Assembly (NCBI GenBank): GCA_025869435.1
Contig: JAOZVS010000138.1
Coordinates: 1 to 35,621 of the forward strand
Direction: 5' to 3'
Length of the DNA: 35,621 bases
Origin: Zavarzinia sp.
GTDB lineage: Bacteria; Pseudomonadota; Alphaproteobacteria; Zavarziniales; Zavarziniaceae
Shown: positions 1,744 to 5,455 of the stretch, one piece after another
Layout of the letters: every line of letters begins with the position of its first letter
How positions within the stretch are numbered: the first letter of the stretch is position 1
Notes under the pieces: model-generated
The model's database searches: none
Told to the model about the DNA's origin: nothing
The model's input: the letters and a program-made list of their open reading frames with translations, nothing else
Program-made: the position numbers and the translations under genes

Positions 1744-1776
1744 AGGGGCGGCAGCGATGCCGCCCCTTTCGTTTTT
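1744..1776 (+). terminator. Intrinsic terminator of glnA
   Basis: A perfect 10-bp GC-rich stem (1744-1753 pairing with 1758-1767) has a 4-base loop and is followed by TTCGTTTTT. It lies just downstream of the glnA stop and touches the stop codon of the convergent minus-strand gene at 1776. The U-tract is on the glnA side only, so it mainly serves glnA. Confidence 0.9.
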
Positions 1777-3359
1777 CAGACGGACTTGCGCCAGCTCTCG
1801 ACCACGCGCAGATCCTCTTCCGGGCGGTCGACGACGATATCCCGCCGGCCGAGACTGACCGTCCCACCCTGCCCGTCGAGGCACAGCCAGTCGCCCTCGC
1901 GCAACACGTCCCCGCCAAGACGCACCTCGTCACCGAAGACGAGGCCGGCGCAGCCGACCAGGCAGGGCTTGCCCATCTGCCGGGCCACCACCGCGGCATG
2001 GGCGGTGCGCCCGCCGACCGCGGTCAGGATACCCGCCGACACGGCGAAACCGGCGACATCCTCGGTCGAGGTATCGTGGCGCACCAGGACCACCGGATCG
2101 CCGGACGCGGCCATTTCGCCCGCCCGTCCGCTGTCGAAGGCGATCCGCCCGCAGGCGACGCCGGGGGATGCCACGGTCGCCGTCGCCAGCACCGGCGCGT
2201 CCCCGGCGAAACGGCTGATGCCGGTCGCCGCCAGATCGAGGCCCGCGAGACGGGCCAGGGCCGTCGCCTCATCGATCAGCCCCTCGGCCACCGCGTCGAC
2301 GGCGAAGCGCAGGGCCGCCCGGGGGGTGCGTTTCGCCGAACGGGTCTGCAGGAACCACAGCCGGCCTTTTTCCACCGTGAATTCGATGTCCTGCATGTCG
2401 GCGAAGGCTTTTTCCAGCATGGCGGCGCCTTCCGCGAGGGCGGCCGCCTGTATTGGCAGGCGCCGGGCCAGCATGGCCACATCCGAAGGGGCCCGGCGGC
2501 CGGAGACGACATCCTCGCCCTGGGCATCGAACAGGAAATCGGCATAAAGCCCCTTCCCGCCCGTCGCCGGATCGCGGGAAAAGGCGACGCCGGCCCCGGA
2601 TGCGCCCCCGGCATTGCCGAAAACCATGGCCTGCACCGTGACCGCGGTGCCGGCCAGCCCCTCGAGCCCGTTCAGGCGGCGGTATTCGCGCGCCTTGTCC
2701 CCGTCCCAGCTGCGGAAGACGGCCCGGGCGGCGGCGCGCAACTGGTCCATGGGGTCGGTCGGCATGGCGGATTCGGTGTTTCGCTGGAAGACCGCGAGAT
2801 ACTCATGGACCAGCCGCTCCAGCGCCTCGGGGTCGAGTTCGGCCTCGCCTTCCGCGTCCTCGGCGCCGATCAGGGCGATCAGCCTTTCCTCGAAGGCGGC
2901 GGCGGGAACCCCGGCCACCACCTCGCCATAGAGCTGGATCAGACGGCGATAACTGTCGAAGGCCAGGCGCGGGTTGCCGGTCATGGCGATGATGCCCCGC
3001 AGGGACGCCGGATTCAGCCCAACATCGAGCACGGTTTCCAGCATGCCGGGCATCGATTTCGCCGCGCCCGAGCGGACCGAGACGAGAAGCGGCGTCCGGC
3101 TGTCGCCGAAACGCCGACCCGTCGCCGCTTCCAGCCCGGCGATGCCTTCGGCCAGCGCCGCATCGAGGGTATCGAGCGCCGAGGGATCGCCACTGTTCAC
3201 GGCCGAGCAGAGCGTGGTGGGCAGGACGAAGGCCGGCGGCACATCAAGGCCAAGACGGCTCATGTGCCAGAGCTGCGCGGCCTTGGCCCCGGCGATTTCG
3301 GCGGTCAACTCGGTCCGGCCTTCGGGCGTGCCGATGAACAGGGGCTTCAGGCGGCTCAT
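1776..3359 (-). CDS. PPDK-like protein without the PEP/pyruvate barrel (ATP-grasp plus phosphohistidine domain)
   Basis: A 527-residue protein that follows the first half of pyruvate phosphate dikinase (PPDK, usually about 880 residues). The N-terminal nucleotide-binding part is visible as LGLDVPPAF, SVRSGAAKSMPGMLETVL, YRRLIQLYG, GTAVTVQAMVFGN, AQGEDVVSG and LQTRSAKRT, each with a close counterpart in PPDK. The swivelling domain has GGRTAHAAVVARQMG, with the phospho-accepting histidine at about residue 454. The protein then ends; the C-terminal TIM barrel that handles PEP and pyruvate is absent. It should be able to move phosphate from ATP to its histidine, but the acceptor is unknown. Its start overlaps the stop of the upstream gene in an ATGA, so the two are probably made together. 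Annotation pipelines would likely call it a PEP/pyruvate-binding domain protein; I would not call it a working PPDK. Confidence 0.85.
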   Translation of the reverse strand: MSRLKPLFIGTPEGRTELTAEIAGAKAAQLWHMSRLGLDVPPAFVLPTTLCSAVNSGDPSALDTLDAALAEGIAGLEAATGRRFGDSRTPLLVSVRSGAAKSMPGMLETVLDVGLNPASLRGIIAMTGNPRLAFDSYRRLIQLYGEVVAGVPAAAFEERLIALIGAEDAEGEAELDPEALERLVHEYLAVFQRNTESAMPTDPMDQLRAAARAVFRSWDGDKAREYRRLNGLEGLAGTAVTVQAMVFGNAGGASGAGVAFSRDPATGGKGLYADFLFDAQGEDVVSGRRAPSDVAMLARRLPIQAAALAEGAAMLEKAFADMQDIEFTVEKGRLWFLQTRSAKRTPRAALRFAVDAVAEGLIDEATALARLAGLDLAATGISRFAGDAPVLATATVASPGVACGRIAFDSGRAGEMAASGDPVVLVRHDTSTEDVAGFAVSAGILTAVGGRTAHAAVVARQMGKPCLVGCAGLVFGDEVRLGGDVLREGDWLCLDGQGGTVSLGRRDIVVDRPEEDLRVVESWRKSV

Positions 3360-5206
3360 GCGGACAACTCCTCAAGCACGCGATCACGTAACGACAGGGC
3401 GGCGTGGGACAGATGATCGGTCGCGGTTTCGATCGCCCGGGCGACCTCGATGCCGAGCACCAGCGGCCGGGCATCGGGACTGGGCGCCGCCACGAGACCG
3501 GCGAAGGCCGCCCGCTCGGCCGCGTCGGCCGCGCGTTCGGCGTTGCTGACGGCGTCGATCGCCTGCAGGGCGGCGATGGCGTCGGCGCGCTGCCCCTCCG
3601 GCAGACGGGACGCGGCCTCGACCGCCCGCACCAGCCAGCCGGCGCTGTCGACCGCGATGGCGGCGAGGCGGGACAGGGGCTCGGCCGCCACCGCCGAGAT
3701 ATCGGCCGGCAGCAGGCTGAGCAGATAGGCGCAATCCTCGAAGGCGTCGGTCGCGTCCTCGACCTCGTCGATGATCGGCCGCAGCAGATCGGCCTGGCGC
3801 AGCCGGGCGGCGATCTCGCGGGCATTCACCGTCAGCACGTCGGCCTTGGCCTCGATCCGCTTCGCCCGCTCGGCCAGCCGCGCCCGGGCCTCGGGCCCAT
3901 CGGGCCCCGTGGGGCTGAGGGAATCGCTGATCGCGCCCGCCAGCATCCGGGTCAGGCCCAGATGGCGGACCAGCACGGTCAGCACCGCGCTTTCCGCGGT
4001 CTCGAAACGGCGCGACAGCTCGGCCTGGATTTCATCGCGGATCAGGCGGGCGCTGCGCCCCGCCGACAGGCCTTCCGAGGTGTTGCGCAGGACATTCCGC
4101 AGGAACTCGGCGCAAACCCCCTCGCCCAGCGCCTCGTCCAGCCGCACGCCATAAGGTATGCGCCCGGCCGCCGTGCGCTGCACCGCCTCGACCACCAGCT
4201 GGTCGCCGCCAAGTTCGAGGAAGGCGCGATGCCCGAGATCCAGCCGCGCCGCCCAGGTCAGCAGGGCGATCGCGCCATTGCGGCCGACAAAGCCCTGCAA
4301 GGCCTTGCGCGCCTTGTTCCAGTCGATCAGGAAGACGATGCGCGAGCCGAGAAAGGCGAGAAACCGGTCCTGCGCCGCCGCATCCGCCGTCGTCAGCCGG
4401 CCGGTCAGCAGGTAGAAGACGTCTTCCGACAGGCCCTCGCCCCGCTGTTCGTCGAGCGAATTCCAGGCGACATCCTGGCCCTCGAACAGCGAGATGAAGA
4501 ATTTGGCGCGCGGTCGGTGAACGTCGGTATAGGTCACCGAAACCTCGCCCGCCTCGACATGAACGACGAGGACATGGGCATCGGTCGTGCCGATGTCGTT
4601 CTGGATCGTCAGTCTTCCGCCGGCGTGAACCGCCGTGGTGCCAAGGCCGGGATGGCCAAAGGCCAGCGGCGCCGTGCGGTTGAGGCCGGACATGAAGGCG
4701 CGCACCGCCGCCTTGTCGCGAAGGCCGAGGGCATGGACACGGGCGCCGTCCAGGGTCTCGACCGCCGTCTCGGCCGACAGGCGGTTGATTGACTTGTGCA
4801 GGTCCATGACGAGAAGATGCAGGCTGTCGGCCCCGCCCCGGCGGGCCATGGTCAGGGCATCGATCGCGCCATGGTCGATACGCTCGCCTTCGCCCATCGG
4901 CAGGGCGGCGACGATCGCGCCGAGCCGGCCCGCCAGATCGCCGCTCTCGGCGATCCCGGCCGCCGCCAACGGGGCGTGCATCGCGGTCAGATCAGCCTTC
5001 AGACCCGCCAGAAGGCCGCCAAGCCCGGGAACGAGCACCTGTCCGCCGCCGATCGCCTTGGCCCCGCCACCGCCACGGGTCGCATCCTGGAGCCGGCTGA
5101 GCGCCAGTTTGATCCGGTCATTGGCGACGAGGGCCGCACTGAGGAGGCCGGGAAGCAGGACCGCCTGCTCGCCCAGCCGGGCCACGATTTCGCTTTTCAC
5201 TGTCAC
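3356..5206 (-). CDS. Large protein with a PhoU/DUF47-like C-terminal region
   Basis: 616 residues from the GTG at 5206, chosen because GGGAG lies six bases upstream; an ATG at 5242 would add 12 residues but has no ribosome site. I do not recognise the N-terminal 440 or so residues, which include a glycine-rich stretch and a segment FLIDWNKARK. The last 170 residues are helical and acidic. Features such as IEAKADVLTVNAREIA, IIDEVEDATDAFED and IEVARAIETATDHL resemble the paired E-x-D helices of PhoU/DUF47 phosphate-regulatory proteins. No transmembrane segment or signal peptide is evident. The stop overlaps the start of the PPDK-like gene (ATGA), implying a shared complex or pathway, possibly phosphate-linked. 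The function is unknown and the DUF47 assignment is moderate. Confidence 0.72.
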   Translation of the reverse strand: MTVKSEIVARLGEQAVLLPGLLSAALVANDRIKLALSRLQDATRGGGGAKAIGGGQVLVPGLGGLLAGLKADLTAMHAPLAAAGIAESGDLAGRLGAIVAALPMGEGERIDHGAIDALTMARRGGADSLHLLVMDLHKSINRLSAETAVETLDGARVHALGLRDKAAVRAFMSGLNRTAPLAFGHPGLGTTAVHAGGRLTIQNDIGTTDAHVLVVHVEAGEVSVTYTDVHRPRAKFFISLFEGQDVAWNSLDEQRGEGLSEDVFYLLTGRLTTADAAAQDRFLAFLGSRIVFLIDWNKARKALQGFVGRNGAIALLTWAARLDLGHRAFLELGGDQLVVEAVQRTAAGRIPYGVRLDEALGEGVCAEFLRNVLRNTSEGLSAGRSARLIRDEIQAELSRRFETAESAVLTVLVRHLGLTRMLAGAISDSLSPTGPDGPEARARLAERAKRIEAKADVLTVNAREIAARLRQADLLRPIIDEVEDATDAFEDCAYLLSLLPADISAVAAEPLSRLAAIAVDSAGWLVRAVEAASRLPEGQRADAIAALQAIDAVSNAERAADAAERAAFAGLVAAPSPDARPLVLGIEVARAIETATDHLSHAALSLRDRVLEELSA

Positions 5207-5390
5207 GCCACGCTCCCGCGAAGAACCCTTCGTGGAATGCATAGCAGCATGGCGCGGACCCGTCGTCCTTGCGCCAAGTCATTCATTTAACTGTCATATC
5301 TCTCTCGCCCGGCCAGATTTTTTTTGTGCCGCGACCGCAGGAACTCGCCCGCACATTCGTTTATAGTCTCCGAGGGGCTCAAGCCCTGTT

Positions 5391-5449
5391 GGCACCACAC
5401 CCCCCCCGGGTGGTGCCTTCGCCCGCCGGCATCCCCCCCGCCGGCGGGC
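5391..5449 (-). terminator. Two tandem GC hairpins after the thioesterase gene
   Basis: Hairpin A: a perfect 10-bp stem, 5421-5430 with 5440-5449, and a 9-base loop. It lies seven bases past the minus-strand stop at 5456. Hairpin B: an 8-bp stem, 5391-5398 with 5410-5417. Neither has a clean U-tract on the minus strand, so these may be weak terminators, RNA 3'-end stabilisers or Rho-linked structures. The rest of 5207-5390 holds a T8 run near 5319 but no gene and no convincing promoter. Confidence 0.55.
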
Positions 5450-5455
5450 TCCCCC

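Follow-up and report, generated by a model that had tools for sequence, protein, structure and literature searches.

In pyruvate phosphate dikinase (PPDK), phosphate from the ATP-grasp domain reaches a phosphoenolpyruvate (PEP)/pyruvate barrel by way of the swivel domain. We describe here a pair of genes, B and A, from a 35,621-nucleotide stretch of Zavarzinia sp. DNA (GCA_025869435.1, contig JAOZVS010000138.1, positions 1 to 35,621; hereafter the window), in which a PPDK-derived protein ends where the barrel would begin and is paired with a PhoU/DUF47-like partner. Several described systems come close to parts of this arrangement. VadK (Rv1127c) of Mycobacterium tuberculosis is a barrel-less PPDK and a histidine kinase that autophosphorylates on the equivalent histidine with Mg-ATP; its operonic partner, Rv1126c, improves its solubility, and VadK co-precipitates with methylcitrate enzymes (PMC13400623). 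HpeHI, CreHI and phenylphosphate synthase PpsAB are two-component (split) small-molecule dikinases (PMC12167813), and rifampin phosphotransferase RPH likewise uses ATP-grasp and histidine swivel domains for an acceptor other than pyruvate, but as a single chain (PMC4844700). PhoU proteins are recognised by an E(D)XXXD motif (PMC5686610).

Our results indicate that A, a protein with the first two PPDK domains and no barrel, is linked almost obligatorily to B, whose most conserved part matches no known family. We consider it somewhat better than an even bet that B and A are two subunits of one dikinase-type phosphotransfer system, with B in place of the barrel. The features of the locus are as follows.

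1776..3359, minus strand: gene A, 527 aa, a PPDK-derived ATP-grasp and phosphohistidine (swivel) protein without the PEP/pyruvate barrel
2325..3359, minus strand: ATP-grasp part of A, about residues 1 to 345, placed by alignment to 1kbl
1845..2192, minus strand: swivel (phosphohistidine) domain of A, about residues 390 to 505 (PF00391 at residues 421 to 499; PPDK central domain 2fm4 aligned over residues 389 to 504)
1998..2000, minus strand: codon of the predicted phospho-acceptor His454, which corresponds to PPDK His455
3356..3359, minus strand: ATGA, the A start codon over the B stop codon, a 4-nucleotide overlap that recurs at many B loci
3356..5206, minus strand: gene B, 616 aa, GTG start, a new N-terminal region followed by a PhoU/DUF47-like C-terminal domain
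4172..4897, minus strand: core of B, residues 104 to 345, the most conserved stretch, mixed alpha/beta, with motifs LVMDLHK, HPGL, IQNDIGTTDAHVLV, YTDVH and VFLIDWNKARK
3359..4009, minus strand: PhoU-like domain of B, residues 400 to 616, with E(D)XXXD motifs E452-D456, E557-D561 and E593-D597

The initial annotation of this locus had proposed a PPDK-like module lacking its barrel, and this was borne out. The protein matches PF01326 (PPDK_N, 8.5e-37) and PF00391 (PEP-utilizers, 9.4e-21), whereas a Pfam search finds no PF02896 (PEP/pyruvate barrel) in it; residues 10 to 524 align with solved PPDKs, after which A ends, and the phosphohistidine-site motif GGRTAHAAVVAR is kept. Measured against canonical PPDK (TIGR01828), A is homologous over PPDK residues 10 to 530 with the checked ATP-site residues, but without the C-terminal barrel. 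Because it has no barrel and scores 519 bits with TIGR01828, for which the cut-off is 843, A by these measures cannot be a PPDK by itself. In C. symbiosum PPDK the ATP site requires a set of residues that we take to be K22, R92, R135, D321, E323, Q335 and R337; on 1kbl these correspond to K26, R96, R139, D324, E326, Q338 and R340 of A, and H455 corresponds to H454. All seven, together with His454, are invariant in 54 of 54 A sequences; the loss of ATP-site residues, which would have spoken against a kinase, was thus looked for and not found. Because of this invariance, A is probably able to load phosphate onto its own histidine.

The pairing of the two genes was examined in two samples. Scanning a collection with a single genome for each species (84,980 genomes) gave 506 stretches that encode a relative of B, with Bradyrhizobium, Xanthobacter, Rhodopseudomonas, Methylocella and methanogens among the sources; the best 80 were kept and read. 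A lies directly downstream of B on the same strand in 80 of these 80 loci, most often with a 4-nucleotide overlap or a gap of at most 20 nucleotides, a figure biased to close relatives in that the 80 are the best matches to the window B. In all 80, four of which are cut by contig ends, A lacks the barrel. Besides many families of Alphaproteobacteria, they include one gammaproteobacterial metagenome-assembled genome (MAG) and three contigs from methanogens. The presence of F420 ligase and NrpR-type genes on one of these three (L112) speaks against contamination. The second sample, 372 alphaproteobacterial genomes, does not share this bias but has only 11 positives. A PPDK-like match occurs in 284 of the genomes, and exactly 11 score above 800 bits with the A profile (815 to 869), the next-best score being 605 bits, in full-length PPDK frames. 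The same 11 genomes, and no others, carry both an A-type protein and B. B is directly upstream of A in all 11 of them, and also on Methylocella and Aquabacterium (betaproteobacterial) plasmids. The linkage of A and B is therefore near-obligate, and the pairing survives in relatives, a point on which the initial annotation could have failed. Each of the 11 genomes has at least one further PPDK-like match, full-length wherever the frame was read, so A is not the cell's PPDK. Distance matrices of A and B agree closely (r = 0.94 over 53 pairs; 0 of 1,000 permutations). Where annotation labels were seen, B is called a "DUF47 family protein" or "phosphate transport regulator" and A a "PEP/pyruvate-binding domain-containing protein."

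Maximum-likelihood analysis gathers the A proteins into a single group with 100/100 support. Outside it stand the 13 full PPDKs and the five other truncated PPDKs of the tree (from Streptomyces, Rhodococcus and Skermanella; Rv1127c was not part of this tree). B is annotated beside none of these five. The operons around truncated PPDKs from a Rhodococcus sp. 008 plasmid (L141, 2824-6458), R. opacus B4 (L140, 4872-6584), R. pyridinivorans (L143, 594-6722) and Skermanella mucosa (L144, 2442-5596) are of quite another kind than B-A: one has a separate PEP-utilising protein of 122 aa nearby, one has P450/ferredoxin genes alongside, one is a biotin carboxylase cluster, and one is a glyoxylate carboligase operon in which the truncated PPDK directly follows pyruvate kinase. 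PPDK modules without the barrel seem to have been reused repeatedly. At eight positions A has a fixed or nearly fixed residue and canonical PPDK has a different one, likewise fixed. Four of the eight (T432, R451, Q461 and C470) lie near His454 in the swivel domain, which has to dock on the acceptor, and these substitutions fit a changed docking partner.

For B, relatives are consistent with the GTG start at 5206; an alternative ATG at 5242 would give a protein of 628 aa. The C-terminal PhoU/DUF47 fold of B is confirmed, because relatives match Pfam, a profile finds a known PhoU-like structure and the predicted model matches that same structure. The window B itself, at 15.7 bits (E 0.0095), falls below the PhoU_div threshold of 24.4 bits. 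A PhoU/DUF47 Pfam match is found in 22 of 63 family members (best 2.3e-7), and B of a Zavarzinia congener (G004) exceeds the PF01865 cut-off with 27.7 bits. A search with the B family profile finds the PhoU-like structure 3l39 (BT4638) with an E value of 8.9e-8, and in Foldseek the AlphaFold model of B, whose PhoU part has a predicted local distance difference test (pLDDT) score of 89, matches 3l39 with a template modelling (TM) score of 0.78 of the target. The initial annotation was therefore right about the nature of this domain and short on its size, which is about 217 residues (400 to 616) and not 170. Its sole invariant residues among 63 sequences are E452, D456, D487, E557, D561, R565 and E593, with D597 nearly invariant, and these fit the E(D)XXXD metal motif. 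B thus shares its fold and motif, in its C-terminal third, with PhoU/DUF47 proteins (PF01865; BT4638, 3l39), but unlike those regulators it is fused to an N-terminal region of about 400 residues with no known match and is tied to a kinase-like partner.

The highest conservation in B lies in that N-terminal region. Of the 57 invariant residues of B, 39 fall in residues 104 to 321, a stretch of 218 columns, whereas the 217 columns of the PhoU part hold 7. Such a concentration would be expected if the core held an active or ligand site. The invariant core residues include H137, N203, D204, H211, D228, H230, D295, N297, R300 and K301. The N-terminal 400 or so residues have no match in Pfam, NCBIfam or PADLOC. 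Structure prediction gives the core (residues 104 to 345) a mixed alpha/beta fold (pLDDT 82.5; predicted TM score 0.77), and in 398 genomes of the phylum and in plasmids it is confined to B-size frames or B-like records. Weak matches to residues 303 to 380 in many alphaproteobacteria proved to be LivG-type ABC ATPases with a short common motif and were rejected as chance. No known fold could be assigned to the core either: the best match in the Protein Data Bank (PDB), an Arp2/3 subunit, has an E value of 0.012 and a TM score below 0.5, with a YbjN-like protein lower in the list, and is not meaningful. RPH does not appear in the 50 PDB matches that Foldseek listed for B or for the core.

How might such a pair work? 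A would carry out the first half of the PPDK reaction, moving phosphate from ATP to His454 in the swivel domain; provided that it works like PPDK, this would yield AMP with Pi/PPi chemistry. That A autophosphorylates is suggested by VadK, for which this was shown (PMC13400623), and the linkage of the genes leads us to infer that A and B bind each other. The swivel domain of A would then pass its phosphate to a site on B rather than to a pyruvate barrel. We propose delivery to the B core because the barrel is missing throughout the clade, because B is the constant companion, and because positions in the swivel domain have changed. B would thus hold the acceptor site, and its new N-terminal alpha/beta domain would most likely provide it, either through a bound ligand or through one of the domain's own residues; the PhoU-like half of B would probably serve metal binding and dimerisation, regulation or the sensing of phosphate or energy state. 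As in HpeHI, CreHI and PpsAB, the ATP-grasp, histidine-swivel and acceptor functions are presumably spread over two proteins, but the A-B genes were not seen in aromatic catabolism clusters.

Several points weigh against this two-subunit dikinase. In HpeHI the split falls elsewhere: HpeI is the ATP-grasp domain alone and HpeH combines swivel and substrate domains, whereas A combines ATP-grasp and swivel, leaving the presumed acceptor domain separate. The B core has no recognisable substrate-binding or catalytic fold in Foldseek searches against the PDB, and the residues conserved there could instead make up a site for a regulatory ligand. The substitutions specific to the A clade are few (8), with only half in the swivel domain. 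Finally, any pair of genes inherited together can be expected to agree in their distances as A and B do, and shared ancestry alone would account for part of the correlation.

A bolder form of the same proposal, to which we would give somewhat less than an even chance, is that the N-terminal region of B is a previously unknown catalytic or phospho-acceptor domain. B and A would then be a new enzyme or signalling system, found across Alphaproteobacteria and into methanogens, that applies PPDK-type phosphohistidine chemistry to a substrate outside the range of all known dikinases, possibly a compound of phosphate storage or central metabolism.

The strongest competing explanation, which we regard as possible though clearly less probable than the two-subunit dikinase, is a regulatory kinase like VadK. 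A would be a phospho-switch that binds or phosphorylates other proteins, and B a sensor or regulatory subunit, its PhoU part reading phosphate or metal, instead of an acceptor enzyme. A, like VadK, has only the PPDK ATP-binding and histidine domains, no barrel, and an operonic partner, and the autophosphorylation of VadK, the solubilising effect of its partner and its association with methylcitrate enzymes (PMC13400623) all support this explanation, as do the regulatory role of PhoU proteins and the retention of their E(D)XXXD motif by B. However, A does not fall in one clade with the tested actinobacterial truncated PPDKs (in the tree that lacks Rv1127c), a B-like partner is not reported for VadK, and the gene neighbourhood of A differs. 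No methylcitrate-cycle genes are among the neighbours of the pair in the window, the neighbours of relatives being varied, and conservation of B is strongest in the core outside the PhoU part. With the truncated-PPDK family model (NF004531/PRK05878) the window A scores 440 bits against a cut-off of 456, and its relatives 404 to 473, some of which pass (L041, 472.6; L121, 457.2).

It is rather unlikely that the pair is an enzyme of phosphate storage or energy metabolism, in which B binds polyphosphate, pyrophosphate or acetyl phosphate and the phosphohistidine of A exchanges phosphate with the bound compound. This idea draws on the PhoU fold of B and on some of the neighbouring genes. A CYTH-CHAD (polyphosphate-type) gene is directly beside the pair in two lineages, upstream in a Rhizobiales MAG and Roseiarcus (L070, 3650-5323; L067, 8386-9975) and downstream in Acidocella aromatica (L063, 13559-14989), and ppk1 and ppx/gppA lie upstream in a Methanolinea MAG (L086, 4348-13542). 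In L091 (6310-13550) and about 16 further Bradyrhizobium loci, the pair is directly preceded on its strand, with short, operon-like gaps, by a phosphoketolase (XFP) gene, in most cases accompanied by acetate kinase, and acyl-CoA genes are among the neighbours of the pair in Methylocella tundrae. These neighbours point to phosphate or energy metabolism in a suggestive way, without proof. They are a handful of independent cases in which chance is possible; at most loci the neighbours are unrelated. Gene calling, including our own calls in the flanks, and clustering over 55 to 88 loci found no widely recurring neighbour family, and no phosphate transporter (Pst/Pit) is among the listed families of immediate neighbours. 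Neighbourhoods being this variable, B-A looks like a self-contained two-gene unit. Nor is a Pho box present upstream of B in any of 78 loci. Thus, of the link to phosphate status suggested by the initial annotation, the PhoU fold, the metal motif and a few polyphosphate-gene neighbours remain as suggestive points, whereas the absence of a Pho box and of conserved neighbourhoods tells against it. Regulation through Pho, RpoN or FNR/FixK boxes was rejected: the same 78 loci have no RpoN box, and FNR-like sites (3 found, 0.5 expected) occur in few lineages only. A role in anti-phage defence was also rejected, as no PADLOC model matches and B is in no phage record.

We think it very improbable that A borrows the barrel of another protein to make PEP, with B as an assembly factor. 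The intact PPDK-type active site of A would allow it, but the window genome already has a separate complete PPDK (a 909-aa frame), and in four Zavarzinia genomes (the window genome and three congeners that are 99 to 100% complete) barrels occur only in the canonical PPDK and in a second large frame, which probably encodes an enzyme I-type protein of the phosphotransferase system. This PF02896 search yielded no orphan barrel gene that could complete A; finding one would have undercut the initial annotation. In addition to A and the canonical PPDK, one of the Zavarzinia-group genomes (G004, C2:183661-184653) encodes a third protein with PPDK_N, in a frame of 987 aa. A chance juxtaposition or a decaying PPDK remnant has the missing domain as the only point in its favour and is refuted by the linkage at 80 of 80 loci across bacteria and archaea and by a ratio of nonsynonymous to synonymous substitution rates (dN/dS) of about 0.12 to 0.14.

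That ratio was obtained against Z. aquatilis, the nearest named relative of the window genome (88% for B), and is alike for both genes; differences by codon position are 47/32/185 for A and 51/38/212 for B. Because dN/dS is low for both, neither is a chance open reading frame. The overlap of the A start with the B stop, as initially annotated, is present, and translational coupling of B and A is likely from this arrangement. The neighbours of the pair in the window are glnA, a 4HBT thioesterase gene and a gene for a GyrB/ParE-type topoisomerase subunit. No match to a sigma-70-type promoter or a T-run terminator was found on the minus strand around the pair. A GC-rich inverted repeat without a T run (5420-5455, minus strand), between the 4HBT thioesterase gene and B, could separate two transcription units.

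The initial annotation had put the pair forward as a phospho-relay or a small-molecule or protein kinase system, and judging from the sequences this stands as the best class of explanation, the searches for a completing barrel, a degraded ATP site and a broken pairing having turned up none of these. Its further suggestion of an undescribed system holds in part. A barrel-less PPDK histidine kinase (VadK, PMC13400623) and split dikinases (PMC12167813) have been published, but we found no description of a pair with B: a literature search returned no paper naming both PPDK and DUF47. The chemistry is thus of a known kind; within the literature searched, the novelty lies in the partner B, in its N-terminal domain and in the linkage of the pair. 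If B and A do form a two-part kinase, the ATP-to-histidine half of PPDK would have separated from the rest and acquired a new partner, in a lineage distinct from the actinobacterial truncated PPDKs, and the pair would offer a model outside pathogens for how barrel-less PPDKs work.

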